A stretch of 64,000 bases of DNA, taken from positions 124,001-188,000 of the forward strand of contig WGNL01000020.1 of assembly GCA_016124585.1 (NCBI GenBank), in the 5' to 3' direction. Numbering within the stretch: position 1 is the stretch's first letter; each line of letters begins with the position of its first letter. Positions 333 through 41,472 of the stretch are shown here, one piece after another. Position numbers and translations under genes: made by a program. Source of the stretch: Bacteroidota bacterium (GTDB lineage Bacteria; Bacteroidota; Bacteroidia; Chitinophagales; Saprospiraceae). The notes under the pieces are model-generated. The model was not told where the DNA came from. It made no database searches and saw only the letters and a program-made list of their open reading frames with translations.

Positions 333-362
333 GGTAAAAAGGATAAAGTAAAGCTTTGTTCA
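333..362 (-). promoter_or_regulatory. Weak ECF-type promoter for the lipoprotein at 287
   Basis: Read on the minus strand: TGAACA, 15 bases, then CTTTTTACC. This has one mismatch to the CGTTTTACC element shared by other promoters here, and the spacer is identical. It faces the promoter at 507-536 across a divergent intergenic region. Confidence 0.45.
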
Positions 363-506
363 ACACAAGAAATTTTTTTGTTAAAATTCAATTATTTAAA
401 TATATCTTACTTTGGCGGCCCAAGATGTTAGCTTATTGTGAAATAAAGGAATAATTCATCAAAATAGATACAAGCTGGCAGTCCTGAAAAAACTGTGCTA
501 ATAGAA

Positions 507-536
507 TGAACATAAACCGCTTAGTTGCATTTTACC
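507..536 (+). promoter_or_regulatory. ECF-type promoter for the CHASE3 kinase operon
   Basis: TGAACA (507-512), 15-base spacer, CATTTTACC (528-536): one mismatch to the shared element. It lies 45 bp before the kinase start at 581. Confidence 0.65.
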
Positions 537-580
537 CTGTATTCCAATTTTCAGGGTTCTAAAATTGGGGAAGGAACAAT

Positions 581-2023
581 ATGATTAATTCGAAACTTAC
601 CAACTTGATCGTTTCTACGGCATCCGTACTGGTAGTGACGCTGGTAGGTATAACTTCTATTTTGTTCCAAAATAAATCGGAAGACAGAATTGCCGAAACC
701 TATGAGGTTAAGGTGAAAATCATGGAAGTGTTTCAACTTTTGCGGTCGATGGAGAGCCGACAACGTGGCTACCTACTCACTGACGACGAAACCTATTTAG
801 GCAAAGCAAATATCAGCCAAGACTCCATAAAGTCCATTTTATTATCCCTCAAAACTCTGATCGGCGACAATCCTACCCAGCAGCAAAACTTGCAAATTTT
901 GTCAGAGTATAGCGATACGAAGGTTAAAGAAATTTTGAAAGTGGTGAGGCTGAACCGCGACGATAAAAGAGAAGATGCATTAGAAATCGTGAATACGGAC
1001 GTGGGTGAGCGGGTAATGGACCAGATAAACAGAATTACAAACACCATGATTGCGGAGGAAGATAAATTGCTGCTCCAAAGGCATTCCAAAAGCAATCGAC
1101 TCCAACTGATTTCCCTGATGCTGCTTAGTCTTGGGATAATAGGTGCTGCGCTCAGCATCTATGCATTGTACAAGCAGGTAGCCCCATTGATTGATGAACT
1201 ATCCAGCACCAACGCTGATCTGCAAAAAAGCATTGAAGAAAAAGAACGGGAAATCGACTTGCGTAAACGGTTGGAAATCCGCAACAAACAATTGATAAGC
1301 CGGCTCACCTCAAAAAATGCAGAACTAAACCATTTTGCCTATATCGCCTCCCACGACCTCCAAGAGCCACTGCGTACCGTGAACAATTTCATTGAAGTTT
1401 TCCAAGAGGACTATGGTGACAAGTTGGGCGACGAGGCGCATCAGTACTTTGACTTTATTCTGGGAGCTACACATCGCATGAAGGGCCTTATTGAAGGGCT
1501 GCTAAACTACTCTCGACTCGGAAAATCGAGAGGTGCTGAGATGCTAGATCTTAACGAAATCTTGAACGTAACCAAAGAGAACTTGACTGCAGCCATTTCT
1601 GCTAAAAACGCCGAAGTGGTAGTGGGCAACCTGCCCAGTCTTAGCTGCATGAAAACCGAGACAACCCAGTTGTTTCAGAACCTCATCAACAACGCCATCA
1701 AGTACACTGCACCTGGAGTAGTACCAAAAATCACGGTCAGCGCAGCTGAACGGGAAGGTGAGTGGGAGTTTTGCGTAGCGGACAATGGAATTGGTATTCC
1801 TGACATTCAAAAGGAGAAAATTTTCAACATGTTCTCTAGGCTGCACGGCGAAGGCGAGTTTCAGGGGCAAGGCATTGGCCTTGCATTTTGTAAGAAAATT
1901 GTAGAGCTGCATGGCGGTAGGATTTGGGTGGAATCAGAACCAGGCCAAGGCAGCCGTTTTTATTTTACTATTTCAAAAAAGATAAAAGATGAGACCGAAA
2001 TTGAACAAAATATTGCTCATTGA
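581..2023 (+). CDS. CHASE3 sensor histidine kinase
   Basis: 480-residue membrane histidine kinase. TM1 is at about 9-29. An extracytoplasmic CHASE3-like helical domain follows (about 30-170, with the typical ESRQRGYLLT stretch). TM2 is at about 174-197, followed by a coiled coil. The dimerisation helix carries the phospho-acceptor His258 (IASHDLQEPL). The ATPase has its N box (NLINNAIKYT), G1 (DNGIGIP) and G2 (GQGIGLA) intact. Its last 35 bp overlap the receiver gene at 1989, so the two are probably translationally coupled and form a phosphotransfer pair. The ECF-type promoter upstream places it in the stress regulon. The ligand is unknown. Confidence 0.92.
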   Translation: MINSKLTNLIVSTASVLVVTLVGITSILFQNKSEDRIAETYEVKVKIMEVFQLLRSMESRQRGYLLTDDETYLGKANISQDSIKSILLSLKTLIGDNPTQQQNLQILSEYSDTKVKEILKVVRLNRDDKREDALEIVNTDVGERVMDQINRITNTMIAEEDKLLLQRHSKSNRLQLISLMLLSLGIIGAALSIYALYKQVAPLIDELSSTNADLQKSIEEKEREIDLRKRLEIRNKQLISRLTSKNAELNHFAYIASHDLQEPLRTVNNFIEVFQEDYGDKLGDEAHQYFDFILGATHRMKGLIEGLLNYSRLGKSRGAEMLDLNEILNVTKENLTAAISAKNAEVVVGNLPSLSCMKTETTQLFQNLINNAIKYTAPGVVPKITVSAAEREGEWEFCVADNGIGIPDIQKEKIFNMFSRLHGEGEFQGQGIGLAFCKKIVELHGGRIWVESEPGQGSRFYFTISKKIKDETEIEQNIAH

Positions 2024-2405
2024 TGATTCAGAAGCCGATAATTTCATCCACCAACGGGTGATAAAAAAGGCAGACGTGGCGCACAATATTATTGTAAAAA
2101 ATAATGGACAATCCGCACTCGACTATCTCTGCACGCAGGACGAAGATGGCAATTACCCTGTTCCAGAATTGGTATTCCTTGACATCAATATGCCCGCCAT
2201 GAACGGTTGGGAATTCTTGGAACACTACGATAAATTGAAGCCGGAGCAAAAGGCTGGCGTCATCGTTTGCATGTTGACTACTTCGGTGGCTGAAGTAGAC
2301 CGCCAAAGAGCTGGCGAGGTTCCGTTAGTAGAATCATTCCTCCACAAACCACTGACCCAAGAAACACTTTTGAAAATACTGGACGAGTATTTTCTGAAGA
2401 AATGA
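1989..2405 (+). CDS. Single-domain response regulator
   Basis: 138-residue stand-alone CheY-like receiver with no output domain. The acidic pair is in LLIDDSEADN and the phospho-acceptor is Asp65 in VFLDINMPAMNGW; a Thr/Ser switch (MLTTS) and Lys (HKPL) are present. It overlaps the kinase end by 35 bp. It belongs to the same receiver subfamily as the protein at 25550-26032 (both have the FLDINMP..NGWEFLE core). Single-domain receivers of this kind usually relay phosphate or bind a partner; which one is not visible here. Confidence 0.9.
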   Translation: MRPKLNKILLIDDSEADNFIHQRVIKKADVAHNIIVKNNGQSALDYLCTQDEDGNYPVPELVFLDINMPAMNGWEFLEHYDKLKPEQKAGVIVCMLTTSVAEVDRQRAGEVPLVESFLHKPLTQETLLKILDEYFLKK

Positions 2406-2421
2406 GATTAAGCCTCTAGAC

Positions 2422-2458
2422 AATATTCCGTTGCCCTGAATTGTGGCAACGGAATATT
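2422..2458. terminator. Bidirectional intrinsic terminator
   Basis: Perfect 14-bp stem (2422-2435 with 2445-2458) and 9-base loop, followed by a T-rich stretch on the plus strand. It sits between the convergent receiver gene (stop 2405) and the DUF892 gene (stop 2476). Confidence 0.8.
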
Positions 2459-2475
2459 TATTTTATCCATGCCGG

Positions 2476-6472: not shown

Positions 6473-6961
6473 TTAAGCTGCTACAGGCTCCCGGTGATGA
6501 GAAAGCCAAGCATCAAGCATCCATGATTTTTTCTCAATATCACCGAGGAATCCACTGATGAGGTCATTGGTGCCTTCATCGCCCGCATTTTCAGCAGCAT
6601 CAAGCACGTTCCTCATGCACTCAATGATTCGTTTGTGGTTGTCCAATGTAATCGATACCATTTTACGATCGTCTTTTACATTACCAGCCTCATCCACCAT
6701 TGACGCATCCAGATAGTCAGACATATTGCTCATCGGGCGATGGCGCAAGGTCAATATGCGCTCTGCAATTGCATCGATTTGGGTACGGGCATCTTGATAA
6801 AGGGCCTCGAATTGTGCATGCAAGGCAAAGAAGTTTTCACCCTGTACATTCCAATGGAAATTGCGAAGATTTTGATAGTAAACATGGTGGCAAGCCAACA
6901 ACTGGTTCAGCTCTTTTACCGTTTTATCAGTTTTAGTTTTTTCTATTCCGAGGTAATTCAT
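6473..6961 (-). CDS. dps: Dps-family ferritin (DNA protection during starvation)
   Basis: 162 residues with the Dps ferroxidase signature spanning helices A and B: FHWNVQGENFFALHAQFEAL, then YQDARTQIDAIAERI. Members form dodecamers that oxidise Fe(II) with peroxide and store iron, shielding DNA. The C-terminus KKSWMLDAWLSH is also typical. A near-perfect ECF-type promoter lies 44-71 bp upstream (7003-7032) and its own terminator downstream, so it is a single-gene stress transcript. Confidence 0.95.
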   Translation of the reverse strand: MNYLGIEKTKTDKTVKELNQLLACHHVYYQNLRNFHWNVQGENFFALHAQFEALYQDARTQIDAIAERILTLRHRPMSNMSDYLDASMVDEAGNVKDDRKMVSITLDNHKRIIECMRNVLDAAENAGDEGTNDLISGFLGDIEKKSWMLDAWLSHHREPVAA

Positions 6962-7002: not shown

Positions 7003-7032
7003 GGTAAAACGGCAGTATTTACTGGATGTTCA
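7003..7032 (-). promoter_or_regulatory. ECF-type promoter of dps
   Basis: Minus strand TGAACA (7032-7027), 15 bases, CGTTTTACC (7011-7003). Exact match to the shared element. Confidence 0.75.
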
Positions 7033-9239: not shown

Positions 9240-9434
9240 TTAGAAAGCAGAGTCAATGAATCTCTTCAAATTCTCCTTCGTCTCGCCAGTCTTTTTTTGG
9301 AGGTTACCGATGAACTCGTCCTCTTTGCCCTCTTCGTAAGCGAGGTCGTCATCTGTCAGGTCAGCATAACGCTGTTTCAATCTGCCTTTGACAATATTCC
9401 AATTGCCTTTGACTTGATCTGTGAATGCGCTCAT
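9240..9434 (-). CDS. csbD: CsbD family stress protein
   Basis: 64 residues with the family core QVKGNWNIVKGRLKQRYADLTDDDL and a C-terminal KKTGETKENLKRFI helix. CsbD-like proteins are abundant, disordered general-stress proteins of unknown mechanism, sigma-B controlled in Bacillus. Here the only ECF-type promoter is about 190 bp upstream (9621-9648), with an intrinsic terminator in between (9485-9520). So csbD is either expressed by readthrough/antitermination or has a promoter I do not recognise. Confidence 0.93.
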   Translation of the reverse strand: MSAFTDQVKGNWNIVKGRLKQRYADLTDDDLAYEEGKEDEFIGNLQKKTGETKENLKRFIDSAF

Positions 9435-9614: not shown

Positions 9615-9620
9615 TTAAAT

Positions 9621-9648
9621 TAAAACGGAGTGGCAATGGCTGTGTTCA
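9621..9648 (-). promoter_or_regulatory. ECF-type promoter (small RNA / csbD)
   Basis: Minus strand TGAACA (9648-9643), 15 bases, CGTTTTA (9627-9621), followed by AT rather than CC. Confidence 0.65.
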
Positions 9649-9697: not shown

Positions 9698-10186
9698 TTA
9701 TGCACGCTCTTGCATGGCGTATCGAACCATATTGCGTTGCCTGCTGAACTTGATAGTTGGCAGTTCGCTGATACGCCTTAGGCTCTCCTTCAGCAATTGT
9801 TGGTGATGTATGCCATGCCGAAATAATCCTTCTGAAAAATCGCTGCTTACGCTTATCTGTTCGTATTCCCGCAACATGGCCTGCTCGTTTTTAAAGCTAT
9901 AGTCCAATATTTGTTGACGGTTATTGATGATAAGTGCCAGCTTCATGTGTTTCCAGGCTTGTTGCAAATAGGACAGCACATCTTTAAATAGCCACATTTC
10001 ACGCTCACTGCCGAACGGTACGTTGGAGGAAAGGATATTGGCCATTTTCCTGCGCTGAGCAGACATGGAACGGAACAATTCAATCAAATCTTCTTCCGTA
10101 GTTATCTCTGCACATCTTCGGTAATATTCGGCACAGTCCGTATGAAGTTTAATTAGCTTTTTAATTTGCTTGTTTACGTTTTCCAT
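9698..10186 (-). CDS. DUF2383-like (PA2169-type) helical-bundle protein
   Basis: 162 residues, all-helical. It opens NKQIKKLIKLHTDCAEYYRRCAE, which resembles the helix-1 pattern of the PA2169/DUF2383 four-helix bundle family (NxLIxxxxDxxxxYxxAA). Later helices contain LKDVLSYLQQAWKHMKLAL and REYEQ. The ferritin-like fold is inferred; metal ligands are not clearly conserved. An exact ECF-type promoter (10209-10238) gives a leader of about 20 nt, which supports this start. Confidence 0.7.
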   Translation of the reverse strand: MENVNKQIKKLIKLHTDCAEYYRRCAEITTEEDLIELFRSMSAQRRKMANILSSNVPFGSEREMWLFKDVLSYLQQAWKHMKLALIINNRQQILDYSFKNEQAMLREYEQISVSSDFSEGLFRHGIHHQQLLKESLRRISELPTIKFSRQRNMVRYAMQERA

Positions 10187-10208: not shown

Positions 10209-10238
10209 GGTAAAACGAGTACCCCTAACCCATGTTCA
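10209..10238 (-). promoter_or_regulatory. ECF-type promoter of the DUF2383-like gene
   Basis: Minus strand TGAACA (10238-10233), 15 bases, CGTTTTACC (10217-10209). Exact match. Its -35 touches the stop codon of the upstream GAF-protein gene. Confidence 0.75.
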
Positions 10239-12581
10239 ATCAGTGGAAACTTTTGATTTTACTTTTATCCGGAGTGCCTTCAAACCTTGGGTTTCTTGTA
10301 GTCGCTCCAGTTCCAATTCCTCAATTTCAGGTTCAATTTGCCCTTCAGTCACCAAGAACTGACAAAACTCCAGATAAAGTTGCCGCATAGGATCCGTGGC
10401 ATAAACGATGGCAATTTTATCAGGCTGCGTCAGTCGCTCCTCCGAGTCCAAGATGCAGGCTTTGTCGATGCGCTTTTTGATGATTTCATAGCGGATATTG
10501 TAGGCACCATCCACATCGAAAAACTTCTCGTCCATGCGGAAGCGTACCGAAATGGGCTGTCCGTACACAAAAACCAACTGGGCTGCCTCCAGCGGCATGG
10601 GCATCTCTGCTTTCAGCGACTGCATACGCCGGGTCACTTCGCACATGGTTTGCAGTTGCCAGAGTCGGAGATTGTTCAACTGGAATTCGGAGAATTTTCC
10701 CATCCGGAGCAGAGATTGCCCAGCATACACCTCAAACTGAACGCCGTCGGTCTGGTATTTTTCAAAAAAATGCGGAATCATCCGCTGAGCCCGTTCGTCG
10801 GCCTGGTCCACCAGTTCCGAAAGCGCCTCGTTGATAAGGCAAACACTCTGCTCGTAAGCCTTACGCCTTTCGTACACGATTTCCATGCTGGGTTCAAGTT
10901 TGGAAAAATAGCGCGTAACGGCTTTCCTTGTCACGGTGTCTCGTTCCGAAAACTCCCGCAAGAGCGGGTGAACTTCTTTTTGAACGAAATCCAAAAAAAA
11001 TGGCTCATCGCTGGTCTGCATCTCGTCTTCGAGCCGGAGCAGGTAGGCATCCGTTTGTTGCTGCATTTTGCGGAGCAACGGAAAGTCCAACCGCTTCACC
11101 ATCAATTTCAACAAACCCGAAATCAGGTTCATTTGTGTTTTGATGTCTTCCCGAATAGTGTGGTTGCGGGTAAGGGAAGAACTCACGATGTCCGATTGTG
11201 CGTAAAGCGGGTAAATTTCCTTGAAAACGATGGGTTCCACATTGGCCTTGCCCTTGGCGTCCAGTTTAGCCAGGAAGCGCTCCGCTACCTCTTCGAACCG
11301 CCACTCCACGCTGGGGTGAATGGCCGTGAACTTCTGGCGCATCACCGCTTCAACACGGTTGGCATACTCTTCCTTTTGCTGTTCCAAGCTGCGGCTGATT
11401 TGGGGCAACACTTTGCGAAGCTGGATGTCCGTAAAACTGTTGATGGCAAATGCTTCCTCGGCACCTAGTTCGAACAGGCCAATTATTTGGCCTTCGGCGT
11501 CCCTCAGCGGGGCCACCAGGTGGGATTGGATGCCCTTTTTTAGCAGTGGAGCATTGCCTTTGTTGATTTCTTCAGAAATCACAACCTCCCCAAAATGACA
11601 GGATTTGGCGTACACCGAGTGGGAGGCGTCTTCCAAAAATGTGCCTTTTTTCCAGTTCAAAATACCGAAACAATGGTCGTCTATGGTGAAATGTCCACCG
11701 ACCTCATCCGACCTCAACGGCAAAACGCCAATTTTAAGTTCGGGGAATTTCAGGAAGGACCTCAGCAGGGTTTCAAGGTTTCCGATGTTTTCTTCTGTCT
11801 TCAAAGCGTCTTTGCGCAGCAAGATGGAGTTAATGCGAGAAAGCGCCGTCTCAGTGGTCACTTCCTCAAAAGTGATAGCCAGGAACCCATGAATTTCAAA
11901 CTTGTTGGGTGGCAGTGCATCGAAAAAAGCATCTACATCGTAGATGTTTTTGAGCAGTTTTTCAATGCCTTTCTTGCCAAGCTTTGGCTGCTCGCCTGTC
12001 GTTTTTACTTCTATAAAATCAAGGTTTAGCACTGGGCGGAAATAGCGTTCCATCCCTTTTTCATCCTTGACAGAAACTGGCGGTGGCACTGGAATATTTA
12101 ACCTCAAGGGTTGTTTGTAGCAAGTCTTTACGATGGTCAGGCAGTTGTTTAGCACGGTGTAATCCAACTGGAAGTTGGCTTGATCGTCCAAGTTGGGCAT
12201 GACCACATCAAAAGCGGGCTTCCAAGCTGGCGTTTGGTAAAATGGCGTGGGATCGCAGGGTGGACATGCTTTGCCGATGAGACCTGCACCAGAAGTATTT
12301 GGGAAAATAGGACTCAGCATCAATTCCAAAAGGTCAGAATGTTCGCTTAACCAGCTAGGGTCTTCGATGGGTTGAGCCAGTTTTGGGATTCGCTTGGTAC
12401 GGTCCAGCACCGTTTTAGCCAAAAGCTTAGAAGCGCCCGAACCATTCTTCAACTCTTGCTCCCAATACCGCAGCAGTGGAGCAAAACTTAGCTTTGAAGG
12501 GTAACCACCAACGAATTGCGTCGCAGGACTTGGTGCTGTTTTTTTTGCATTGAGGAGGATTGCTGAATTTTCTTGGCCCAT
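10236..12581 (-). CDS. Large GAF-domain protein of unknown function
   Basis: 781-residue soluble protein without a signal peptide or TM segment. Residues about 310-420 resemble a GAF domain (FTIDDHCFGILNWKK..., IQSHLVAPLRDAEGQIIGLFELG). The N-terminal third has a Cys/Pro cluster (GKACPPCDPTPFYQTP), and the C-terminal half is long helices. No kinase, cyclase or phosphodiesterase output domain is visible, so it is probably a sensor or scaffold. An exact ECF-type promoter (12599-12628) leaves a leader of only about 14 nt before this ATG. Downstream of it comes the DUF2383-like gene with its own promoter. Confidence 0.75.
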   Translation of the reverse strand: MGQENSAILLNAKKTAPSPATQFVGGYPSKLSFAPLLRYWEQELKNGSGASKLLAKTVLDRTKRIPKLAQPIEDPSWLSEHSDLLELMLSPIFPNTSGAGLIGKACPPCDPTPFYQTPAWKPAFDVVMPNLDDQANFQLDYTVLNNCLTIVKTCYKQPLRLNIPVPPPVSVKDEKGMERYFRPVLNLDFIEVKTTGEQPKLGKKGIEKLLKNIYDVDAFFDALPPNKFEIHGFLAITFEEVTTETALSRINSILLRKDALKTEENIGNLETLLRSFLKFPELKIGVLPLRSDEVGGHFTIDDHCFGILNWKKGTFLEDASHSVYAKSCHFGEVVISEEINKGNAPLLKKGIQSHLVAPLRDAEGQIIGLFELGAEEAFAINSFTDIQLRKVLPQISRSLEQQKEEYANRVEAVMRQKFTAIHPSVEWRFEEVAERFLAKLDAKGKANVEPIVFKEIYPLYAQSDIVSSSLTRNHTIREDIKTQMNLISGLLKLMVKRLDFPLLRKMQQQTDAYLLRLEDEMQTSDEPFFLDFVQKEVHPLLREFSERDTVTRKAVTRYFSKLEPSMEIVYERRKAYEQSVCLINEALSELVDQADERAQRMIPHFFEKYQTDGVQFEVYAGQSLLRMGKFSEFQLNNLRLWQLQTMCEVTRRMQSLKAEMPMPLEAAQLVFVYGQPISVRFRMDEKFFDVDGAYNIRYEIIKKRIDKACILDSEERLTQPDKIAIVYATDPMRQLYLEFCQFLVTEGQIEPEIEELELERLQETQGLKALRIKVKSKVSTD

Positions 12582-12598: not shown

Positions 12599-12628
12599 GG
12601 TAAAACGGTTAGGCATGGTGGATGTTCA
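12599..12628 (-). promoter_or_regulatory. ECF-type promoter of the GAF protein
   Basis: Minus strand TGAACA (12628-12623), 15 bases, CGTTTTACC (12607-12599). Exact match. Confidence 0.75.
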
Positions 12629-15628: not shown

Positions 15629-15793
15629 TTAGGCTTTTTTCAACATATTGCCTACCAATGAAATGAGGAACAATACGATGAAAACAAAGAATAGGAGCTT
15701 GGCAATGCTGGCAGCACCAGCAGCAATTCCAGTAAAGCCGAAAACGGCAGCGATAATTGCAATGACGAAGAAAACAAGGGTGTAGCGTAGCAT
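15629..15793 (-). CDS. DUF1328 (YtjA-like) small membrane protein
   Basis: 54 residues with two hydrophobic spans. The pattern [20 protein letters not shown], then [15 protein letters not shown], matches DUF1328 proteins such as E. coli YtjA. These are tiny inner-membrane proteins of unknown role, common in stress regulons. A moderate ECF-type promoter lies at 15897-15926, about 105 bp upstream. Confidence 0.85.
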
Positions 15794-15896: not shown

Positions 15897-15926
15897 GATA
15901 AAAAGGATGTTCGTATTGATTGTTCA
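15897..15926 (-). promoter_or_regulatory. Moderate ECF-type promoter of the DUF1328 gene
   Basis: Minus strand TGAACA (15926-15921), 15 bases, CTTTTTATC: two mismatches in the -10, with exact -35 and spacing. Confidence 0.45.
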
Positions 15927-17162: not shown

Positions 17163-17182
17163 GTTATGGAAATTGTTGTTGA

Positions 17183-17287: not shown

Positions 17288-17309
17288 GTCGCTGGAATTT
17301 AATTAAGCG

Positions 17310-24363: not shown

Positions 24364-24424
24364 ATTGAAGGGCGCAATTATATTTGTGCGTACCTATCCC
24401 AAATAATTTACAATCTATCCTACT

Positions 24425-24964: not shown

Positions 24965-24966
24965 GA

Positions 24967-29008: not shown

Positions 29009-29038
29009 TGAACAAGCAGTATAGTGCTCCGTTTTACC
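29009..29038 (+). promoter_or_regulatory. ECF-type promoter of the lmo0937-like/YtxH genes
   Basis: TGAACA (29009-29014), 15 bases, CGTTTTACC (29030-29038). Exact match. Confidence 0.75.
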
Positions 29039-29122: not shown

Positions 29123-29275
29123 ATGAGAGACATTGTTTGGATCATTATCGTCCTACTGATAGTAGGTTGGTTGCTCGGCTTCATCAGCTTTGGAGCTGTT
29201 TTGGGCAACATGGTACACATACTGCTCGTCGTAGCAGTTATTCTGATCGTGCTAAAATTACTAGATAAAATTTAA
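29123..29275 (+). CDS. lmo0937-family small membrane protein
   Basis: 50 residues with two hydrophobic helices: MRDIVWIIIVLLIVGWLLGF, then VHILLVVAVILIVLKLL. This layout matches the lmo0937 family of tiny membrane proteins, often in general-stress regulons. It has an exact ECF-type promoter 85 bp upstream and precedes a YtxH gene. Confidence 0.85.
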   Translation: MRDIVWIIIVLLIVGWLLGFISFGAVLGNMVHILLVVAVILIVLKLLDKI

Positions 29276-32111: not shown

Positions 32112-34235
32112 TCAACCATCATAATCGAGCCGCCCGATTTCGTATTTAGTCATGCGGGAGTAAAGCGTCTTGTCGTTCATGCCGAGGATTTCGGCAGCGC
32201 CACCTGGGCCAGTGACCTTTCCCTTGGTGCGGCGTAGGGCTTCCAGAATATGATCCCTTTGTAAGTCTTCCATGGTTTTGAACGCTATTTTCTTGCCGGA
32301 TTTAGCTGTTTTGAACTGAAAATTGGCAACCAGTTTTTTTCCAAGAGACAGGATGACGGCGCGCTCGATTAGGTTTTCAAGTTCCCGCACATTACCGGGA
32401 AATTCGTAGGCTTCCAATTCATTTACCACTGATTCTGGAATCTCCTCAATGTTTCGCCCCAGTTTTTGGTTATACTTGTCAATAAAATGCCGTACGAGCG
32501 GCTTAATGTCCTCCTTGCGGTCCCGAAGTGGGATGTTGACGATTGGGAAGACGTTGAGGCGATAAAACAGGTCTTCCCGGAATTTTCCTTTCTCCACCAT
32601 TTCCTCCAAGTTGCGGTTGGTAGCGGCGATAACCCGCACATCCACCTTGGTCGTCTCTGTACCACCAAGCCGCTCGAACTCACCTTCCTGCAGTACCCGC
32701 AATAGTTTGGCCTGTAGGTCCAGTGGTAATTCGCCAATTTCATCCAAAAAAATGGTACCACGATGGGCCAGCTCAAAACGACCAGCCTTGCGGTTAAAGG
32801 CACCAGTAAACGCTCCTTTTTCATGGCCAAACAGCTCGCTCTCGATGAGGTTTTCGGGCAACGCTCCGCAATTGATTTTCACCATCGTTTGCTCCGATCG
32901 CGTACTGAGCGAATGAATAGCCTTGGCCAAAAGTTCCTTGCCCGTACCCGTTTCACCCAATATCAAAACCGTGGCTGAAGTGCCAGCCACTTGCCCAATC
33001 TGGCGTAGAATGGGCTTATAACTAGGGCTACGGCTAATGATATTGGTGAATCCTTGTTCCACTTGGATCTCTTCCTTCAGAAGTATATTCTCTTTGGCCA
33101 GTTTTATTTGCAGCGCCTCGATTTCCTTCACCTGCTGCTTCAGTTCGAGCTCCTGCGCCCGCTGCTTGGTAATGTCACGGAGAATGTTGCTGACGAATTC
33201 CTTGCCTTTCAAATTGATAAGCTGAGCGTTCGATTCCACCAGTATTTGCTCGCCGTTTTTGCAGACCATATTCAATTCAATGGGAACAGACCTTCCTGTG
33301 CGCAAGTCTTCCCAGCGCCGTTTAAATTTTTTCAGGTCGAAATCAGGAAAAAAATCAAGTATCGTCATTTGCTCAATATCCTCCACGCTGTACCCTGTCA
33401 TCTGCACAAAAGTGTCATTGAAAAACCTAAAATTGGCTTCTTCCGTCAACCAGATTACCATGTTGGGCGCAGTCTTTATTGTGGCAAAGGACAGTTGTAT
33501 ATCTTCCTCCAATGCCTTGCGCTTCCGAATATCCCGCACAAATGCCATTTTGTACTCCTTGCCATTGTAGTTCATATAATGAAGGGACAATTCCACCGGA
33601 AACTCGTCACCATTTTTAGAACGGCGAGAAGCTTCACGCGTCAGATAGCCTTCTTGCTTAACGGTTTCCCATTCCTTACGCCAAGCATCCTCCGTTAGTC
33701 CGGGCTCCATATCAGCTAGCTTCATGCCATCAAGTTCTTCGGCAGTATAGCCGAGCACTTCCCGCACTGCCTTATTGGCATAAAAAATACGACCCTCTGG
33801 CGACACCCAAGTAATCATCTCGTTCACATTGTCAAGACAAAAGCGGGCTAGGTAGAGGTCTTCTTGCGACTCCGTAAGATTGCCTTCTACGATAGCCTGG
33901 CAGTATTTTTCACCCTCTACCTCCAGCAATACCCCACGTAGCTTGGCTGGCACAGTGTCTCCGTCGGCGGTGATGTGTTCTGTTTCCACCGTGACCTGAC
34001 CGACTTCCAGTAGCTCCTCCCATAGCTTTTTCCAGGCCATCAGGTTAAAATGGGGATTTACCTGAAAAAAGGTTTTGGGCTGAAAATCACCCTTGCCATA
34101 TCCCAATCCTTGTGCAAAATGTCGATTGACAAAAAGCACGTTAGCCTCCCGGTCGAGGAACATGACACCATGTTGCATAATCTCTGCAGCGTCAAGGTGT
34201 ATGGAAAGCCTATCTGATGGATTTGGCATTGACAT
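32112..34235 (-). CDS. Sigma-54-dependent PAS-domain transcription activator
   Basis: 707 residues: three PAS domains (about 10-125, 135-250, 255-375), a coiled-coil linker, an AAA+ domain (about 405-635) with Walker A GETGTGKE, the sigma-54-contacting GAFTGA, Walker B IFLDEIGELP and the R-finger segment, then a Fis-type HTH (about 665-705; GAAEILGMNDKTLYSRM). It has no receiver domain, so PAS ligands or partners probably control it. It is divergent from the ECF sigma gene at 34545, whose upstream region carries paired palindromes and a sigma-54 promoter; the simplest reading is that it activates that promoter. Confidence 0.95.
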   Translation of the reverse strand: MSMPNPSDRLSIHLDAAEIMQHGVMFLDREANVLFVNRHFAQGLGYGKGDFQPKTFFQVNPHFNLMAWKKLWEELLEVGQVTVETEHITADGDTVPAKLRGVLLEVEGEKYCQAIVEGNLTESQEDLYLARFCLDNVNEMITWVSPEGRIFYANKAVREVLGYTAEELDGMKLADMEPGLTEDAWRKEWETVKQEGYLTREASRRSKNGDEFPVELSLHYMNYNGKEYKMAFVRDIRKRKALEEDIQLSFATIKTAPNMVIWLTEEANFRFFNDTFVQMTGYSVEDIEQMTILDFFPDFDLKKFKRRWEDLRTGRSVPIELNMVCKNGEQILVESNAQLINLKGKEFVSNILRDITKQRAQELELKQQVKEIEALQIKLAKENILLKEEIQVEQGFTNIISRSPSYKPILRQIGQVAGTSATVLILGETGTGKELLAKAIHSLSTRSEQTMVKINCGALPENLIESELFGHEKGAFTGAFNRKAGRFELAHRGTIFLDEIGELPLDLQAKLLRVLQEGEFERLGGTETTKVDVRVIAATNRNLEEMVEKGKFREDLFYRLNVFPIVNIPLRDRKEDIKPLVRHFIDKYNQKLGRNIEEIPESVVNELEAYEFPGNVRELENLIERAVILSLGKKLVANFQFKTAKSGKKIAFKTMEDLQRDHILEALRRTKGKVTGPGGAAEILGMNDKTLYSRMTKYEIGRLDYDG

Positions 34236-34315: not shown

Positions 34316-34350
34316 TTCTTAAATTTAAGAACATTTCTTAAATACAAGAA
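34316..34350. promoter_or_regulatory. Paired palindromes, candidate activator-binding sites
   Basis: TTCTTAAATTTAAGAA (34316-34331) is a perfect 16-bp palindrome. TTCTTAAATACAAGAA (34335-34350) is a second, imperfect copy. Centres are 19 bp apart, about two helical turns. They lie about 55-90 bp upstream of the sigma-54 promoter, the usual place for a Fis-HTH activator. Confidence 0.65.
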
Positions 34351-34404
34351 TTTATGTCTTGATAAAAACGATACAAATAATTGATTATCAATTAGTTACA
34401 AAGT

Positions 34405-34420
34405 TGGCACGGCGTTTGGC
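34405..34420 (+). promoter_or_regulatory. Sigma-54 promoter of the ECF sigma gene
   Basis: TGGCACGGCGTTTGGC: GG at -24 and, ten bases later, GG in place of the usual GC at -12. Otherwise it matches the TGGCACG-N4-TTGC consensus. About 125 bp before the ATG at 34545. Confidence 0.7.
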
Positions 34421-34544: not shown

Positions 34545-35072
34545 ATGACAACGTTAAAATTCAATCACAACCTCGCACAAATCCAGAACCTTCTTTTTGC
34601 TTTCGCAATGAAGCTTACTTACAGCAACCGTGAAGATGCAAATGACCTCTACCAAGAAACCGTTATGCGTGCTTTCGCAAGCAAAGATCGTTTCCAAGAA
34701 GGAACAAATTTCAAAGCTTGGGTGACCACTATCATGCGCAATTGCTTTATCAATGAATATCGCAAGCGCCGTACTCGCAATCAGGTAGAACAACCGTTAG
34801 AAGATAATGTAGAATTTGCAGTACGTCAGGCAGTTCGTAACGATGCTGGTACAGTAATCATGATGAAAGAATTGCGCATCATGCTTGATAAAATGGATGA
34901 AGCACATCGAATTCCTTTCGAAATGTTCTTTAACGGTTTCGAATATCAAGAAATAGCCGATGAGCTTGAACTTCCAATGGGTACTGTTAAAAGCCGTATT
35001 TTTTTCGCCCGCAAGAAAATGAAAGATATGATTCAAGGCAGCTATGGCGTGGAACATTTCCGCCGGGCATAA
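34545..35072 (+). CDS. ECF-family RNA polymerase sigma factor
   Basis: 175 residues. Sigma region 2 is at about 10-80 (DANDLYQETVMRAFASKDRF and NFKAWVTTIMRNCFINEYRKRR) and region 4 at about 110-165 (IPFEMFFNGFEYQEIADELELPMGTVKSRIFFARKKM). No anti-sigma gene lies next to it. Its expression is probably driven by sigma-54 and the divergent PAS activator, an uncommon arrangement for an ECF factor. The target promoter is not proven; the repeated TGAACA-N15-CGTTTTA element is one candidate. Confidence 0.93.
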   Translation: MTTLKFNHNLAQIQNLLFAFAMKLTYSNREDANDLYQETVMRAFASKDRFQEGTNFKAWVTTIMRNCFINEYRKRRTRNQVEQPLEDNVEFAVRQAVRNDAGTVIMMKELRIMLDKMDEAHRIPFEMFFNGFEYQEIADELELPMGTVKSRIFFARKKMKDMIQGSYGVEHFRRA

Positions 35073-35247
35073 TCCCAAAAACATTTTCAAAATAAATTTT
35101 CCTAACCGAGAAATAAGACACGATGAACCGACTATCATCCCCTCAGCCCAAAGCCAACTTAGTTTTCAAACCTATTTCATTAAACCATACTCCCCCATAA
35201 ACCAATTTCATTTCCCCCGATTTAAATCTACCCATTCGTTGGGTTAC

Positions 35248-35297
35248 CGGGACAAGGGATATTTCGTAGAAAGACGCCCTTGTTCCGTTGTTTTTTT
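35248..35297 (+). terminator. Terminator of the ECF sigma gene
   Basis: 11-bp stem (35248-35258 with 35277-35287, one wobble) and a run of T residues. The sigma gene stops at 35072. Confidence 0.7.
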
Positions 35298-35396
35298 GCA
35301 ATAAAATACTACCGATTAATTTTGCATTCAACGGAAAAAAAGAAGAAAATCCTCTCATTAAACCCACGATATTATTTTCTTAGTTCATGGGATTAT

Positions 35397-35435
35397 GACG
35401 GGAACAAGGCATTTAGCACTTGTTCCCGTCTTTTT
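35397..35435 (+). terminator. Second strong terminator, origin of transcript unclear
   Basis: GACGGGAACAAG (35397-35408) pairs perfectly with CTTGTTCCCGTC (35419-35430), followed by five T residues. Confidence 0.75.
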
Positions 35436-35599
35436 ATGTCTAACAAGATTTTCATAACTGCCGCTTGTTTGCTGGGTGTGCGGCTCGGAAATGGCTAAAT
35501 GAGTATGCCCTGGGCTGAGTGTGCCTGGAAAGGATAGTTCGAATGGAAGGTTTTCTGTTTTAAGGGCTAAGGGGCTTATTCAGGAATTAAACAGCCAAT

Positions 35600-35833: not shown

Positions 35834-36862
35834 CTATTCTTCTTCTCCTATCGCAGACATGGTCCGGAGATATTCATTAGGGTACAATCCATATTTTTCC
35901 TTGTACCTGCGTGCGAAATAACTAGAGTTTTCATAACCCACACTAGCCGCAACTTCTTTAATAACTGGATTTCCAGCAGCCATCAATTGGCGCGCCATCC
36001 GCATACGTTCGTTTCGCACATACTCATTGATAGTAGTACCAAACATCTTCTTGAATCCTTGTTTTAGCTTTTGGCGATTCACGCCAGATTTTCTTGACAG
36101 CACCTCAATGGTAGGCGCATTTTTCAGGTCTGCAACTAGCAGGTTGCGAGCCATGATAATTTTCTCCAAGTCTTCTGGGCGCAACATGCCCGACTTTCCA
36201 GGTGCGGGCATGATTTCGGTTTCCCAACGCCGAAGCTGAAGGGAAAACAGCTCAATTGCCTTTGACTCTGCAAACGTGGCGTGGATCAGGCCGTCTTTTT
36301 TGTCGTCCATGATCTGCTGCACCAGTGCTGCGCTTTTTAGCCCAAATTCACTGTTTAAAAAGGATTTTACGACAGTTTCTCCGTTGAAAATATTGACCAC
36401 TTCGGCCCTTACTGCATCAGGCAAGCAGCCGATGTGGTTAATGTAAAGTTGACGTTCTAGCTTAAGCCAAACAAAGGTCGTGTTTATGCCGCCTTTGATG
36501 TGGACAAGCTGAGATTGCTGAGCCGGATGTGCTACCATGATGGTTTTCATCGGCTGCATGACAATCGGCTCCGCCAAACCGGTAAAGCTAAATTCAACAT
36601 CGCCCCGTACGCAGAAATAGAGCAAAAAAGGGGAATCTACCTTGCTCTGTGTGGTTATTTCCCAATCTTCAGGAGCTGTACCATTGAGCAGGAGCATTTC
36701 TACACCGTCTTCAAAATTGTAAGTACAAAGCGTACCGAATGCAGGTTCTGAATGGAGGTTTATCCACCGCTTTTGGCAATCCTGCTGAACCTCTTGTCCA
36801 AAACGCTTGGCAGCAGATGTCAACAGTCTATCAAGGTCATAACTTTTGAATTTGGATTTCAT
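35834..36862 (-). CDS. AraC-family transcription regulator
   Basis: 342 residues: an N-terminal ligand/cupin-like region (about 1-230) and a C-terminal double-HTH AraC domain (about 240-335) with VLSRKSGVNRQKLKQGFKKM, IKEVAASVGYENSSYFARRY and KEKYGLYPNEYLR. The ligand is unknown. It lies 12 bp downstream of the coiled-coil lipoprotein gene and so is probably transcribed from the ECF-type promoter at 37402, making it a second-tier regulator of the stress response. Confidence 0.9.
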   Translation of the reverse strand: MKSKFKSYDLDRLLTSAAKRFGQEVQQDCQKRWINLHSEPAFGTLCTYNFEDGVEMLLLNGTAPEDWEITTQSKVDSPFLLYFCVRGDVEFSFTGLAEPIVMQPMKTIMVAHPAQQSQLVHIKGGINTTFVWLKLERQLYINHIGCLPDAVRAEVVNIFNGETVVKSFLNSEFGLKSAALVQQIMDDKKDGLIHATFAESKAIELFSLQLRRWETEIMPAPGKSGMLRPEDLEKIIMARNLLVADLKNAPTIEVLSRKSGVNRQKLKQGFKKMFGTTINEYVRNERMRMARQLMAAGNPVIKEVAASVGYENSSYFARRYKEKYGLYPNEYLRTMSAIGEEE

Positions 36863-36874: not shown

Positions 36875-37384
36875 TTATTTTTCTTCCAAGTCCGCACCAT
36901 CGATGCGTATCTTGATGTTTTCCACTTCTTGCACGATAGCAGCAGCTTGCATTTGCAACTGGTCATAGTTTTCCCGGATGATGCGGTGTTGCTCTGCAAC
37001 TTCACCAGCATCCAGTGTTTGGCGTTCATGCTTTTTGACCAAATCCTCATTCTCATCAATGAGGCGTTGCTGCTCCCGGCACATTGTTTCGAACTGGTTG
37101 ATGAGCGAATCTTGCAGCATGACAATACTGCGCAGGGAATCTGCCGGATTTTTATCCGCCTTCACGTCATGTTTAAACTTTTCATTTTCCGTTTTCAGAA
37201 AATCAAGCCGCTCAATCATGCCCTTGTGCGAAAGCTGCATGGTTTCTGTAAGCTCAATGGCCTGCTGATGTGCAGCACTAGTTTCCGTTGAGTTTGGCTT
37301 GGACTTGTTGCAAGCTGGTAAAACGAAAAATACCATTGCGACAGCAAGGAAAAGAGATTGGGCATTGATTTTTAATTGAAGCAT
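36875..37384 (-). CDS. Coiled-coil lipoprotein
   Basis: 169 residues. A lipoprotein signal (VFFVLPACNKS) is followed by almost continuous coiled coil (about 40-165) rich in Glu, Gln and Lys. Probably periplasmic and lipid-anchored. An exact ECF-type promoter is about 20-47 bp upstream of the ATG. Forms an operon with the AraC regulator. No family recognised. Confidence 0.8.
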   Translation of the reverse strand: MLQLKINAQSLFLAVAMVFFVLPACNKSKPNSTETSAAHQQAIELTETMQLSHKGMIERLDFLKTENEKFKHDVKADKNPADSLRSIVMLQDSLINQFETMCREQQRLIDENEDLVKKHERQTLDAGEVAEQHRIIRENYDQLQMQAAAIVQEVENIKIRIDGADLEEK

Positions 37385-37401: not shown

Positions 37402-37431
37402 GGTAAAACGGGTGGTTCAGTCCCATGTTCA
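37402..37431 (-). promoter_or_regulatory. ECF-type promoter of the lipoprotein/AraC operon
   Basis: Minus strand TGAACA (37431-37426), 15 bases, CGTTTTACC (37410-37402). Exact match. Confidence 0.75.
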
Positions 37432-38270: not shown

Positions 38271-38774
38271 CTAGCTGTGGGTGTGCAGCACCAAGTCTTT
38301 TTGGAGGGAGTGCAACATTTCTTCCATACCTTTTGGAACAGATACGGTAAGTGTTACCACTACATTGTTGTCTTGTTGCATGGCATGGTAATAAACGATG
38401 GTTTTGTCACCTTGCACAGTGGCTTCATAGTTCGTTTTATTCACATCATTTTTTAGTACTACTATTTTCTTGTTTTTGGTGGACAACTCTGTTACCATTT
38501 CTTGGTAAAAATCCTCCATGCTGGTTCCCACAATATTATAGGCACCATAAACTTTCGCATTGATCATTCCATCATCGGAAAAAAGACTTACACCATCAGC
38601 GTTGTCAGAATTAATCTGGTGTGTGAAAATGGCTGTTGGGTATTGCAAACAAAAATCGAATCGGGCGTTGCAGTATTCATTGCCGCCGCTGCTGAAATCA
38701 ACAGCGTTCTTGGAAGAAAAGCCAATGAAGAAAGGCAGCAACAACAGAATTGAAAAGCTGATAAATGGTCTCAT
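38271..38774 (-). CDS. Secreted hypothetical protein
   Basis: 167 residues with a Sec signal (about 1-19) and a mixed alpha/beta body containing a Cys pair (YCNARFDFCLQYP), a late LVVT-type strand region, and a His-rich end LHTHS. The Cys pair could form a disulfide. Not recognised as a named family. The only ECF-type promoter is 190 bp upstream, beyond a terminator-like hairpin. Confidence 0.7.
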   Translation of the reverse strand: MRPFISFSILLLLPFFIGFSSKNAVDFSSGGNEYCNARFDFCLQYPTAIFTHQINSDNADGVSLFSDDGMINAKVYGAYNIVGTSMEDFYQEMVTELSTKNKKIVVLKNDVNKTNYEATVQGDKTIVYYHAMQQDNNVVVTLTVSVPKGMEEMLHSLQKDLVLHTHS

Positions 38775-38960: not shown

Positions 38961-38990
38961 ATTAAAACGGGGCAGTTTCGCCCATGTTCA
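38961..38990 (-). promoter_or_regulatory. ECF-type promoter (small RNA / 38271 gene)
   Basis: Minus strand TGAACA (38990-38985), 15 bases, CGTTTTAAT (38969-38961). Confidence 0.65.
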
Positions 38991-39036: not shown

Positions 39037-39888
39037 TCAAAATACAAGCACGGGAATATCTGCTTTAAGCACTAAGGTGCGGGTAATTTCATAGTTGAAA
39101 AAGCGCTTAAATACAGGTGTTTCCCGGAAGGGGAAAGCAATAATGTCAGTATTTGTAAGCCCAGCCATTTGCAATATTTCTTCTGGCGACTGGTGCATAA
39201 AGAACCGGTATTCATGGTTGAACTGGAATGGCAGCTCTTCTTTGAACTGATCCATTGCCTCTCCAATTTTCAAGGCCTCACGCTCTTGTGTCTGAGGATC
39301 AAAGACGAAACCCACCACAATTTGGGCAACATGCGTATCGGCGAACTTGCGCAAGAAACGGAAGCCTTTGTGCCGACCATCCATCAGCGTTTTAGAATCA
39401 GCTAAGTACATAATCCGAGTAATGCCCTTATAAGCCGCCGCATCAGGGACAAATAGCACAGGACATTTTACTTCGGCAGCCACACTGGTTTCAGTAGTAC
39501 CCAACACATTGTCCCACCAACCGTGATCAGTTGTTTTTGGCATCACCAGCAAACAAGAACCGCCTTCGTTCTCCTCCAATTCCTCCATTTTACCGATTGT
39601 TGCATTGGCTTGAAAGCCCACACCCTGTTCCAAGCGAGTATTAGGGTAGCGCTTTTGCACCGCCTCCAGAAGTTCATTACCAATATGTTCTATCTCTGCG
39701 ACTGCTCCCGGTAAATTTTCGTAGCCAATCCCAGGCATTGTCGCATCCATATCCACCAACATTGGCATGCCCTGAACGCAGTAAATCAGTAACTCTTTTT
39801 GGCCAGCACGAGCTAGCTCTTCTGCATACTCCAGCACATTTTGCTGAATATTAGTTGGGTCAATACTGACGACAATTTGATTTTTCAT
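39037..39888 (-). CDS. Tandem universal stress protein
   Basis: 283 residues from the ATG at 39888. The frame opens earlier (39918), but that ATG would lie only about 7 nt from the predicted transcription start. Two Usp folds: the first (about 1-150) opens IVVSIDPTNIQQNVLEYAEELA and ends CPVLFVPD; the second (about 155-283) opens ITRIMYLADSKTL and ends DIPVLVF. The ATP-loop GxxGx9GS is not clearly kept, so it may be a non-ATP-binding type. An ECF-type promoter lies at 39930-39959. Confidence 0.88.
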   Translation of the reverse strand: MKNQIVVSIDPTNIQQNVLEYAEELARAGQKELLIYCVQGMPMLVDMDATMPGIGYENLPGAVAEIEHIGNELLEAVQKRYPNTRLEQGVGFQANATIGKMEELEENEGGSCLLVMPKTTDHGWWDNVLGTTETSVAAEVKCPVLFVPDAAAYKGITRIMYLADSKTLMDGRHKGFRFLRKFADTHVAQIVVGFVFDPQTQEREALKIGEAMDQFKEELPFQFNHEYRFFMHQSPEEILQMAGLTNTDIIAFPFRETPVFKRFFNYEITRTLVLKADIPVLVF

Positions 39889-39929
39889 GACAAACGTATT
39901 TGGGTGGAACTCTGCCATTTTTTGGCACG

Positions 39930-39959
39930 GCTAGAACGGATAGAACTTAGCCATGTTCA
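39930..39959 (-). promoter_or_regulatory. ECF-type promoter of the universal stress gene
   Basis: Minus strand TGAACA (39959-39954), 15 bases, CGTTCTAGC: one mismatch in CGTTTTA. It decides the downstream start codon at 39888. Confidence 0.6.
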
Positions 39960-40063: not shown

Positions 40064-40093
40064 TGAACAAGCCATTAGGTCACCCGTTTTACC
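40064..40093 (+). promoter_or_regulatory. ECF-type promoter of the 40155/YtxH/holin-like genes
   Basis: TGAACA (40064-40069), 15 bases, CGTTTTACC (40085-40093). Exact match. An 8-bp stem with a long loop follows in the leader (40096-40134). Confidence 0.75.
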
Positions 40094-40154
40094 TCAAAAT
40101 CAGTATATTTAATTGTATTGAATTACCTGATTTTACTGTAAAAAATAATCTCTT

Positions 40155-40472
40155 ATGGAAGATACTTCAGTTCTGAAAATCGCCAAGACTTCCCGTTCTG
40201 CCATTGACTCTTTGGCTAATTCAAAAGAAGAATTTAACGTGATTATAGCTAAGTTGGATAAACTGATTGGAGACAATTCTCAACAGGTACGTATCTCAAA
40301 TGATATTTCCAATGCCAGCCAAGTCGGACTAATAAACAAGCTCAAAATCCATCGAAAGCGGCTGTGCGACATGCTGGCGGAAATGGAAGTAATCAAAGAA
40401 GATGCTTGGGAAGCGCTTAGGCCGGAAGCTGCCAAAGTTTACGAAGAAGCCGCATCGGCGATGAAAAAATAA
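40155..40472 (+). CDS. Helical hypothetical stress protein
   Basis: 105 residues, all helical and soluble. It opens MEDTSVLKIAKTSRSAIDSLANS and ends EAASAMKK. The amphipathic pattern suggests a helical bundle. No family recognised. Directly under an exact ECF-type promoter and 66 bp before a YtxH gene. Confidence 0.75.
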   Translation: MEDTSVLKIAKTSRSAIDSLANSKEEFNVIIAKLDKLIGDNSQQVRISNDISNASQVGLINKLKIHRKRLCDMLAEMEVIKEDAWEALRPEAAKVYEEAASAMKK

Positions 40473-40538
40473 GAATAATCTCAATTTGACCACTCACTTT
40501 TTTTAACCATAATTTTTAAATCTTAAATCGAATTTATC

Positions 40539-40877
40539 ATGAAAAACAGTTCAAAAGTCGCAGTAGTAGCAGGCTTGGGCGCCATCGCAGGTGGTGTTGC
40601 AGGGTATTATCTCAACTCAGACAAAGGTCGCCAGCAGCGCCAGGTGGCGGGTGAAGCCATCAAGGAACAATCTGCCAAAGCTGCTAATTATGCAGCAGAC
40701 ATGGCCACAAAGGCAAAAACAGTTGCTTCTGATTTGACTACCAAAGCACAAAATCTTATTGCCTCTGCAACCAACAAAGCTGAGCAAGTGAAGGCTAATG
40801 TAGCCGATGGCGTGGACCATCTGAAGTCCCAAACTGAAAAAATTGTCTCCAACGGCCAGTCTAAAGTCGTTGCTTGA
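40539..40877 (+). CDS. YtxH-domain general stress protein
   Basis: 112 residues with a YtxH domain: VAVVAGLGAIAGGVAGYYLNSDKGRQQR, then an Ala/Lys-rich amphipathic helix (AANYAADMATKAKTVASDL). Paralogue of 29370-29741. Second gene in the cluster under the promoter at 40064. Confidence 0.88.
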   Translation: MKNSSKVAVVAGLGAIAGGVAGYYLNSDKGRQQRQVAGEAIKEQSAKAANYAADMATKAKTVASDLTTKAQNLIASATNKAEQVKANVADGVDHLKSQTEKIVSNGQSKVVA

Positions 40878-40899
40878 TAACCCCATTTTCCCAAAAACA

Positions 40900-40926
40900 A
40901 GGAGTGCCCGATGGGCCTCCTTTTCT
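40900..40926 (+). terminator. Terminator between ytxH and the holin-like gene
   Basis: Stem AGGAG-T-GCCC / GGGC-CTCCT (40900-40921) with a 3-base loop, then TTTTCTTT. The next gene starts 20 bp later, so termination may be partial. Confidence 0.6.
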
Positions 40927-40945
40927 TTACATTTAAGCAATTGCC

Positions 40946-41323
40946 ATGAAAAATACAGACGAAATACTGACCTCTGCTGGAGAAACATTCGAGTACGCCC
41001 GCCATTACATCAAACAACAAGGTGATTATATCCGGCTGGAAGCCGCAGAGCGCATTAGCAAAACCACTTCAGCGATGGTTACGGCTTTGGTACTTTGCAT
41101 TTTTTCCCTGCTCGTACTCATCATGCTTTCATTGGCAGCTGCATTTTGGCTGGGCGATAGGATGGGATCCTATGCTGAGGCTTTTTTCATAGTATCTGTT
41201 TTCTATTGCTTAATCGGTGCTTTGGTCTATATTTTTCGCAAGCAGTTCGTCACGAATCCAACTTTGAAATTGATGCTGAACGCATTTTTTGATAGGGAAA
41301 ATCAAAGCTCTGAGCAAGTGTGA
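40946..41323 (+). CDS. Phage_holin_3_6-like two-span membrane protein
   Basis: 125 residues. An N-terminal amphipathic helix (HYIKQQGDYIRLEAAERISKTTS) is followed by two TM helices (about 47-70 and 77-98) and a basic tail. The pattern matches the phage_holin_3_6 (DUF1469-like) family, which in chromosomal stress clusters is usually a membrane stress protein found with YtxH, not a phage lysis gene. No phage genes are nearby. Confidence 0.82.
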   Translation: MKNTDEILTSAGETFEYARHYIKQQGDYIRLEAAERISKTTSAMVTALVLCIFSLLVLIMLSLAAAFWLGDRMGSYAEAFFIVSVFYCLIGALVYIFRKQFVTNPTLKLMLNAFFDRENQSSEQV

Positions 41324-41443
41324 CAAATTTGTCCTCATCAAGCACAAAAAATCATAATCTTTTCACACCAAAGACTTTCGCAGCATCTTCTCCAGCTGCA
41401 TCGACACTATATCCCATTCTTTTTATCATTTCTGTTAGCAGGT

Positions 41444-41472
41444 TGAACAAATCCCGCACTGAACTTTTTTAG
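41444..41472 (+). promoter_or_regulatory. Possible weak ECF-type promoter of the second sigma gene
   Basis: Exact TGAACA (41444-41449). At the expected distance the -10 is TTTTTTAGC, so only the TTTTA core is kept. If real, it would make the sigma factor autoregulated. Confidence 0.3.

Follow-up and report, generated by a model that had tools for sequence, protein, structure and literature searches.

The window analyzed here is a 64,000-nucleotide stretch of a genome from the Bacteroidota family Saprospiraceae (contig WGNL01000020.1, positions 124,001 to 188,000; coordinates below are window positions). Its first 42 kb carry repeated copies of a short element, TGAACA-N15-CGTTTTACC, which the initial annotation had read as a promoter of the extracytoplasmic function (ECF) sigma factor type. 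Six exact matches to the element are present in the window compared to none in 100 shuffles. When up to three mismatches were allowed, 20 matches were found, while shuffled sequence gave a mean of 2.08 and a largest value of 7. We kept the 16 matches with an exact TGAACA and dropped the four without it, three of which lie within coding sequence. The retained sites and the genes that follow them are listed below; several gene annotations were made by eye.

333–362, minus strand: candidate ECF promoter of a lipoprotein gene running across the window start, with its start codon at 287
507–536, plus strand: candidate ECF promoter of a CHASE3 histidine kinase gene (581–2023)
7003–7032, minus strand: candidate ECF promoter of a Dps/ferritin-like gene (6473–6961)
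9619–9648, minus strand: candidate ECF promoter of a CsbD gene (9240–9434)
10209–10238, minus strand: candidate ECF promoter of a DUF2383 gene (9698–10186)
12599–12628, minus strand: candidate ECF promoter of a 781–amino acid (aa) gene (10236–12581)
15897–15926, minus strand: candidate ECF promoter of a DUF1328 gene (15629–15793)
17308–17337, minus strand: candidate ECF promoter of a PycTM-domain gene (15978–17213)
21470–21499, minus strand: candidate ECF promoter of a 64-aa membrane protein gene (21231–21425)
21921–21950, minus strand: weak candidate ECF promoter of a thioredoxin-like gene (21510–21881)
29009–29038, plus strand: candidate ECF promoter of a DUF5670/lmo0937-like gene (29123–29275), with a YtxH gene downstream
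37402–37431, minus strand: candidate ECF promoter of gene 36875–37384, and of the AraC-family gene 35834–36862 too if the two form one operon
38961–38990, minus strand: candidate ECF promoter of gene 38271–38774
39930–39959, minus strand: candidate ECF promoter of a Usp gene (39037–39918)
40064–40093, plus strand: candidate ECF promoter of gene 40155–40472 (weak sll1863 match, below cut-off), which is followed by a YtxH-like gene (match below cut-off) and a holin-3_6 gene
41444–41473, plus strand: weak candidate ECF promoter of the ECF sigma factor gene ECF2

A promoter-like element with fixed spacing and orientation

Each of the 16 sites is oriented towards a start codon 11 to 186 bp away when small genes are counted. 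Such small genes, coding for CsbD, DUF1328, DUF5670 (lmo0937-like), and the lipoprotein that crosses the window start, lie downstream of the sites that seemed to lack a gene. Fifteen of the sites lie between genes, and the other extends into the final 3 bases of the gene upstream. In contrast, 27 of the remaining 31 TGAACA words in bases 1 to 42,000 are located in coding sequence (Fisher P = 7 × 10^−8). When spacings from 8 to 24 were scanned across the window, 14 of 15 TGAACA/CNTTTTA pairs had a spacing of 15.

The initial annotation had listed eleven sites with an exact −35 box and a 15-base spacer, and all eleven have both (those placed at 9621 and 17310 actually run from 9619 and 17308). 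The full consensus is present in just six of them; the deviating −10 boxes are CATTTTACC (507), CGTTTTAAT (9619 and 38961), CGTTTTACG (17308), and CGTTCTAGC (39930). Seven weaker sites had also been proposed. Five of these (333, 15897, 21470, and 21921 on the minus strand and 41444 on the plus strand) have the exact −35 box and N15 with one to three mismatches at −10, but the two at 4742 and 7622 (both on the minus strand) combine TGAACA with a poor −10 box and fall outside the set of matches with up to three mismatches. At 7622, in front of a Pmp3 gene, the counterpart in the genus relative G006 has a better site (L031:8706). With its GAAC and CGT boxes, the element looks like an ECF sigma promoter with the consensus TGAACAt-N13-cC(G/T)TTTTAcC. 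Its type, its position just before genes and pointing at them, its enrichment before starts rather than in coding sequence (over the first 42 kb), and the assignment of many downstream genes to stress families all agree with what the initial annotation had proposed.

The sites concentrate in one genomic island

The genome that contains the window (G000; 6.63 Mb in 45 contigs) was scanned by pattern search rather than with a matrix. Eight exact matches were found, six of them in the window, and none in the reversed control. With up to one mismatch, 14 matches were found, nine of them in the window; since the reversed control gives three, the five matches outside the window are probably due in part to chance. 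For the relaxed pattern TGAACA-N15-CNTTTTA, 14 of the 19 genomic matches fall within 40 kb (C7:124335-164091; binomial tail of 9 × 10^−28; three matches in the reversed control). Three members outside the island are credible: the gene of an OmpA/PD40 protein on contig C13, whose G006 counterpart also has a site; the gene of a TonB_C protein on C45; and, on C10, a gene paralogous to that of the 21231 membrane protein, with a one-mismatch site. The remaining outside matches may be chance. The set of sites is thus mainly an island and not a genome-wide regulon. Of the large regulon under one ECF factor that had been suggested initially, the single ECF factor remains a plausible reader, but its targets are mostly one island with about three credible outliers.

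The exact motif was present in 3 of 60 genomes (own genome included), and all three, G000, G006, and G007, belong to one genus. The G006 and G007 sites are grouped in a syntenic island, which also contains Usp, YtxH, holin-like, YihY, and sll1863-like genes, the sigma factor gene ECF1, and a sigma-54 activator gene. The Dps gene of G007 belongs to its island, and that of G006 lies on a second contig on which the gene order carries on. In G008, a fragment of the island with four variant sites was found at the end of a contig. For 12 of the 16 window promoters, a site with an unrelated spacer sequence also precedes the G006 counterpart; these are the promoters of the lipoprotein, Dps, CsbD, DUF2383, 10236, DUF1328, 21231, lmo0937-like, 36875, 38271 (38% identical in G006), Usp, and sll1863-like genes. 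The PycTM gene is a possible 13th case (site 460 bp away). No site was found, at up to 2 to 4 mismatches, before the G006 counterparts of the CHASE3 kinase, thioredoxin-like, and ECF2 genes.

A phylum-wide regulon under this promoter was rejected: in 395 Bacteroidota genomes, more than two matches to TGAACA-N15-CGTTTTANC were found solely in the own genome. When the same pattern was sought in 398 genomes of the family, only G000 (8), G006 (10), and G007 (5) had more than two matches, and the 19 matches outside the genus are close in number to the 20 counted for the reversed pattern. Some lone matches precede CsbD-, HPF-, YHS-, or MscS-like genes (by eye), and one precedes a DUF2383 homologue.

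ECF1 and the region upstream of it

The following features of the window bear on which sigma factor may read the element and on how that factor may be controlled.

32112–34235, minus strand: sigma-54 activator (bacterial enhancer-binding protein, bEBP) with PAS domains, 707 aa, divergent from ECF1 (Pfam)
34316–34331: palindrome TTCTTAAATTTAAGAA, proposed activator site 1 (from sequence)
34335–34350: palindrome TTCTTAAATACAAGAA, proposed activator site 2 (from sequence)
34386–34398, plus strand: TATCAATTAGTTA, an IHF-like sequence or inverted repeat TTGATTATCAA, conserved in part in position
34404–34418, plus strand: proposed sigma-54 −24/−12 element TTGGCACG-GCGT-TTG of ECF1, the sole match to the search pattern in the window
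34545–35072, plus strand: ECF1, the proposed regulon sigma factor, 175 aa (Pfam Sigma70_r2 and Sigma70_r4_2; clade I of the tree)
41546–42088, plus strand: ECF2, a SigK-like sigma factor; the next gene is on the opposite strand, leaving no co-oriented anti-sigma gene

ECF1 matches Sigma70_r2 (residues 13 to 76) and Sigma70_r4_2 (110 to 159), with no region 3 family listed, which makes it an ECF factor by definition. It is 86% identical to its counterpart in the G006 island and 73 to 74% identical to that in the G007 island. At 70% identity or more, ECF1 occurs in 4 of 14 genomes of the genus (G000, G006, G007, and G008), and the same four have at least two motifs of the CKTTTTANC form (11, 14, 6, and 2, respectively). 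Among the other ten, G009 and G011 have one motif each and eight have none (P = 0.001, kinship uncorrected); because close kinship among these four genomes is possible, this value is not independent evidence. Synteny and co-occurrence favor ECF1, rather than ECF2, as the likeliest sigma factor to read the motif, a choice that the initial annotation had not made.

No convincing conservation was seen when the small open reading frames (ORFs) downstream of ECF1 (35044–35304 and 35280–35498) were compared with the downstream stretches of seven relatives, one of which is 130 bp long. Both ORFs were set aside as anti-sigma candidates on this basis, a search for anti-sigma domains not having been made. 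That no convincingly conserved gene follows ECF1 is in keeping with a sigma factor regulated through its synthesis and not through an anti-sigma factor. Since no adjacent anti-sigma gene was recognized, regulation of ECF1 probably takes place at its own transcription.

The divergent gene encodes PAS_9 in three stretches, Sigma54_activat, HTH_8 (a Fis-type helix-turn-helix), and the GAFTGA motif, the combination that defines a bEBP; GAFTGA was seen in nine of ten activators linked to ECF1, or in their stretches. Between the two genes, the palindromes are arranged in tandem, 19 bp apart, and, by eye, G006, G007, and other genera have related palindromes at the equivalent position. The consensus of sigma-54 promoters is TGGCAYG-N4-TTGC. 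The element found with the search pattern TTGGCACG-N4-TTG fits this consensus at −24 and in its spacing, with TTGG at −12. In its kin, the −12 box reads TTGA, TTGG, TTGC, TAGA, or TTTTA, and two diverged members, L234 and L239, have the textbook form TTTGC. The sequence TATCAATTAGTTA at 34386, which we take to resemble an IHF site, has equivalents 18 bp before −24 in 7 of the 13 loci with a strict −24/−12 element. The rpoN gene is present in all four genomes searched. This likely control layer, an activator gene adjoining ECF1 and a sigma-54–like element before ECF1, was absent from the initial annotation.

Activator linkage, sigma-54–like elements, and motif matches across the family

Fifty-two loci of the family with an ECF1 homologue, which are the best-scoring matches and not a random sample, were divided into 7 with and 45 without the activator; on seven of the latter, contigs shorter than 11 kb, an activator might have gone unnoticed. 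Stress families numbered 5.4 per locus on average in the presence of the activator and 0.27 in its absence. For the −24/−12–like element, sought within 1.3 kb, the seven loci were combined with the three genus islands. It precedes ECF1 in 10 of 10 activator-linked cases, in 3 of 16 unlinked members of clade I, and in 0 of 39 others (reversed pattern: 1, 0, and 0). Three of the ten linked elements sit 215 to 672 bp before the ECF1 start, and the unlinked L213 and L239 have a variant or shifted copy. The block around the element is recognizably conserved across genera. All ten activator-linked ECF1 proteins fall into clade I of the tree (26 rows; support 98/91). A single origin of the linkage within clade I was rejected, as the tree needs eight changes.

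The loci were also searched with a matrix built from genus sites, which holds no site of the loci tested. The sites had been chosen for TGAACA, so the −35 information in the matrix is circular, that of the −10 box and flanks less so. At a threshold of 15, 11 matches were found in the seven activator loci (105 kb; reversed, 0) compared to a single match in the 45 others (733 kb; reversed, 4). At a threshold of 12, the numbers were 13 (reversed, 2) and 8 (reversed, 6). The matches are spread over five of the seven activator loci (L214, L218, L220, L221, and L236).

Several gene arrangements were noted around ECF1 homologues. G006 carries two more ECF1-like genes (54 and 79% identical) ~5 kb apart at L136:12029-18177, with no motif nearby, and one of them adjoins an OmpA/glycine-zipper gene. 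In two other genera (L218:6461-6901 and L219:6886-7302), a ~140-aa gene without Pfam match lies directly before ECF1 and follows a sigma-54–type element, as if in an operon with ECF1. MscS-type channel genes were met repeatedly in other genera of the family, either next to ECF1 or downstream of the motif (L214:10491-11465, assigned by Pfam; L209:18188-19189, L181, and L182, assigned by eye).

A proposed circuit and its alternatives

From sequence and domain content, we infer the use of sigma-54, the specificity of ECF1, the signal input, and the stress function of a circuit that would operate as follows. The PAS domains of the divergent activator (32112–34235) would sense a signal; the activator would bind the tandem palindromes (34316–34350) and open the sigma-54 promoter at 34404–34418, so that ECF1 is made. 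ECF1 would then read TGAACA-N15-CGTTTTACC at ~16 promoters of one 40-kb island and at a few genes elsewhere. The target set would comprise Dps, CsbD, DUF1328, DUF2383, Usp, YtxH/holin-like, and lmo0937-like genes, an AraC regulator, and sensors. Lying behind the motif promoter at 37402, the AraC gene (35834–36862) would extend the circuit. We assign a probability of roughly 0.7 to this circuit as a whole, from PAS sensor and sigma-54 through ECF1 to stress genes.

The motif, its spacing and location, synteny, co-occurrence, and the conserved upstream element are directly established; a number of observations nevertheless weigh against the circuit built on them. No TGAACA site precedes ECF1 itself, whereas ECF2 has one. 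The ECF1 gene of G008 (70%) is located on a separate 14.5-kb contig without the activator or a −24/−12 element; ECF1 paralogues in G006, G005, G013, and G001 have no motif nearby; and a 72-aa ORF after ECF1 has a weak match in G006 (23 aa, E = 0.002). At the proposed sigma-54 promoter, the −12 box ends in GG and not GC, and that of G007 is TTTTA; the IHF-like site abuts −24 and is present in only 7 of 13 loci. No GAFTGA was detected in L223. Activator loci L223 and L234 have no matrix match even at a threshold of 12, and linkage to the activator is scattered in clade I, as the eight changes on the tree indicate. The stricter pattern TGAACA-N15-CNTTTTA was found in two of the seven linked loci of other genera (twice in L218 and once in L220). 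A looser pattern gives eight matches in activator loci versus one in the others, but it was widened after matches had been seen in some of the same loci, from which all eight come; at other spacings in linked loci, it matches once at 12 and twice at 16.

It is unlikely that the motif is read by ECF2, with autoregulation from the site at 41444 and some other role for ECF1. ECF2 does lie in the island with the motif 72 bp upstream, an arrangement that fits the positive autoregulation described as usual for ECF factors (PMC8103513), and an ECF2-like gene with an RskA partner is found near ECF1 in G157 (L214). However, a TGAAC motif lies upstream of none of the 20 related ECF genes examined, 11 of these genes are followed by one whose product, judged by eye, begins in the manner of RskA_C from L214 (itself assigned by Pfam), related ECF factors occur also in genomes without the motif, and the G006 counterpart, 47 to 48% identical, has no TGAACA upstream. 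The G007 island stretches gave no ECF2 match despite the motif there, and in G007 and G008 the interval separating the holin gene from the one that follows it gave none either; stretches of G114 and G065 have motif matches and ECF1 but gave no ECF2 match. ECF2 is probably a downstream target.

Another ECF factor encoded elsewhere could read the motif, the linkage of ECF1 reflecting shared island ancestry. More than 40 sigma-like candidates appeared on a loose first look at G000, and the possible close kinship of the four motif genomes would suit such ancestry; yet the motif and activator-linked ECF1 are also found together at some loci belonging to other genera of the family, and we consider this explanation quite improbable. 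The alternative in which the element serves a transcription factor as operator and is not a promoter draws on the AraC-family gene of the island, which has counterparts in G006 and G007. The layout in one orientation, the 15-base spacing, the distances of 11 to 186 bp to starts, and the GAAC and CGT boxes fit ECF promoters instead, and the element has no dyad symmetry by eye, which makes an operator very hard to credit.

Other genes of the island

In the protein encoded at 15978–17213, behind an ECF promoter candidate, the PycTM (Pycsar effector) domain follows a long N-terminal part. Genes of a phytochrome-type histidine kinase (PAS_2, GAF, and PHY), a response regulator, and heme oxygenase are located at 22045–25542 in the island; the G006 island has counterparts of them, as does the neighborhood of ECF1 in G071 (L219), which hints at a light input. 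A very large Omp85-ended protein has two paralogues (31% identical), one encoded in the island at 17361–21206 and the other just before it at L038:16081-19788. The N terminus of both is phosphoesterase-like by eye.

Discussion

We lean, at somewhat better than even odds, towards the view that in Saprospiraceae, and perhaps in other Bacteroidota, a general stress response runs through a sigma-54–to–ECF cascade. A PAS sensor-activator would make the ECF factor on demand, no anti-sigma factor would be needed, and sensor, sigma factor, and most targets would travel as one regulon island. If true, this would supply a candidate sigma factor, promoter code, sensor, and gene set for a compact general stress response of ~40 kb. 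Among the matches listed in a literature search on Bacteroidota or this gene set, there was no general stress master regulator of Bacteroidota and no such cascade for the phylum.

The general stress responses best understood are those of SigB, RpoS, and EcfG. The SigB regulon of Bacillus overlaps with the island in gene kinds (CsbD, YtxH, and Dps). SigB, which is controlled by partner switching, does not belong to the ECF factors; the sigma-B analogy drawn in the initial annotation extends to function only. The stress-gene content of the EcfG regulon of Alphaproteobacteria, too, is similar to that of the island. The EcfG (ECF15) promoter is GGAAC-N16-CGTT, and EcfG is released from NepR by PhyR (PMC7083833). 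Written in the same way, the promoter here is TGAAC-N16-CGTT; compared with GGAAC-N16/17-CGTT, its spacing agrees and its first base differs. The PhyR-NepR-EcfG pathway was considered because of this likeness and rejected, as NepR was found in none of four genomes while the Caulobacter control was positive.

Within Bacteroidota, two promoter classes mapped in Flavobacterium psychrophilum are relevant: SM6, an ECF class carrying a CGT box at −10, and a sigma-54 class (PMC9723704). In the text available from that study, type IX secretion components and one pair of ECF and anti-sigma factors are among the SM6 genes, and the sigma-54 class includes chaperone genes. These targets differ from those of the island, and the same text states no sigma-54–to–ECF cascade.

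The wiring proposed here has a parallel in Pseudomonas syringae, where a sigma-54 promoter, the enhancer-binding proteins HrpRS, and IHF drive the ECF gene hrpL, and HrpL drives its regulon (PMC5263251). The likeness lies in sequence elements: an activator gene nearby, upstream palindromes, a −24/−12–like element, and an ECF gene. The two systems differ in that a single PAS-domain activator is present here and in that the annotated island genes are mostly of stress-family, envelope, and sensor types. If the circuit is correct, HrpL-type wiring, known from type III secretion, would serve stress genes in another phylum.

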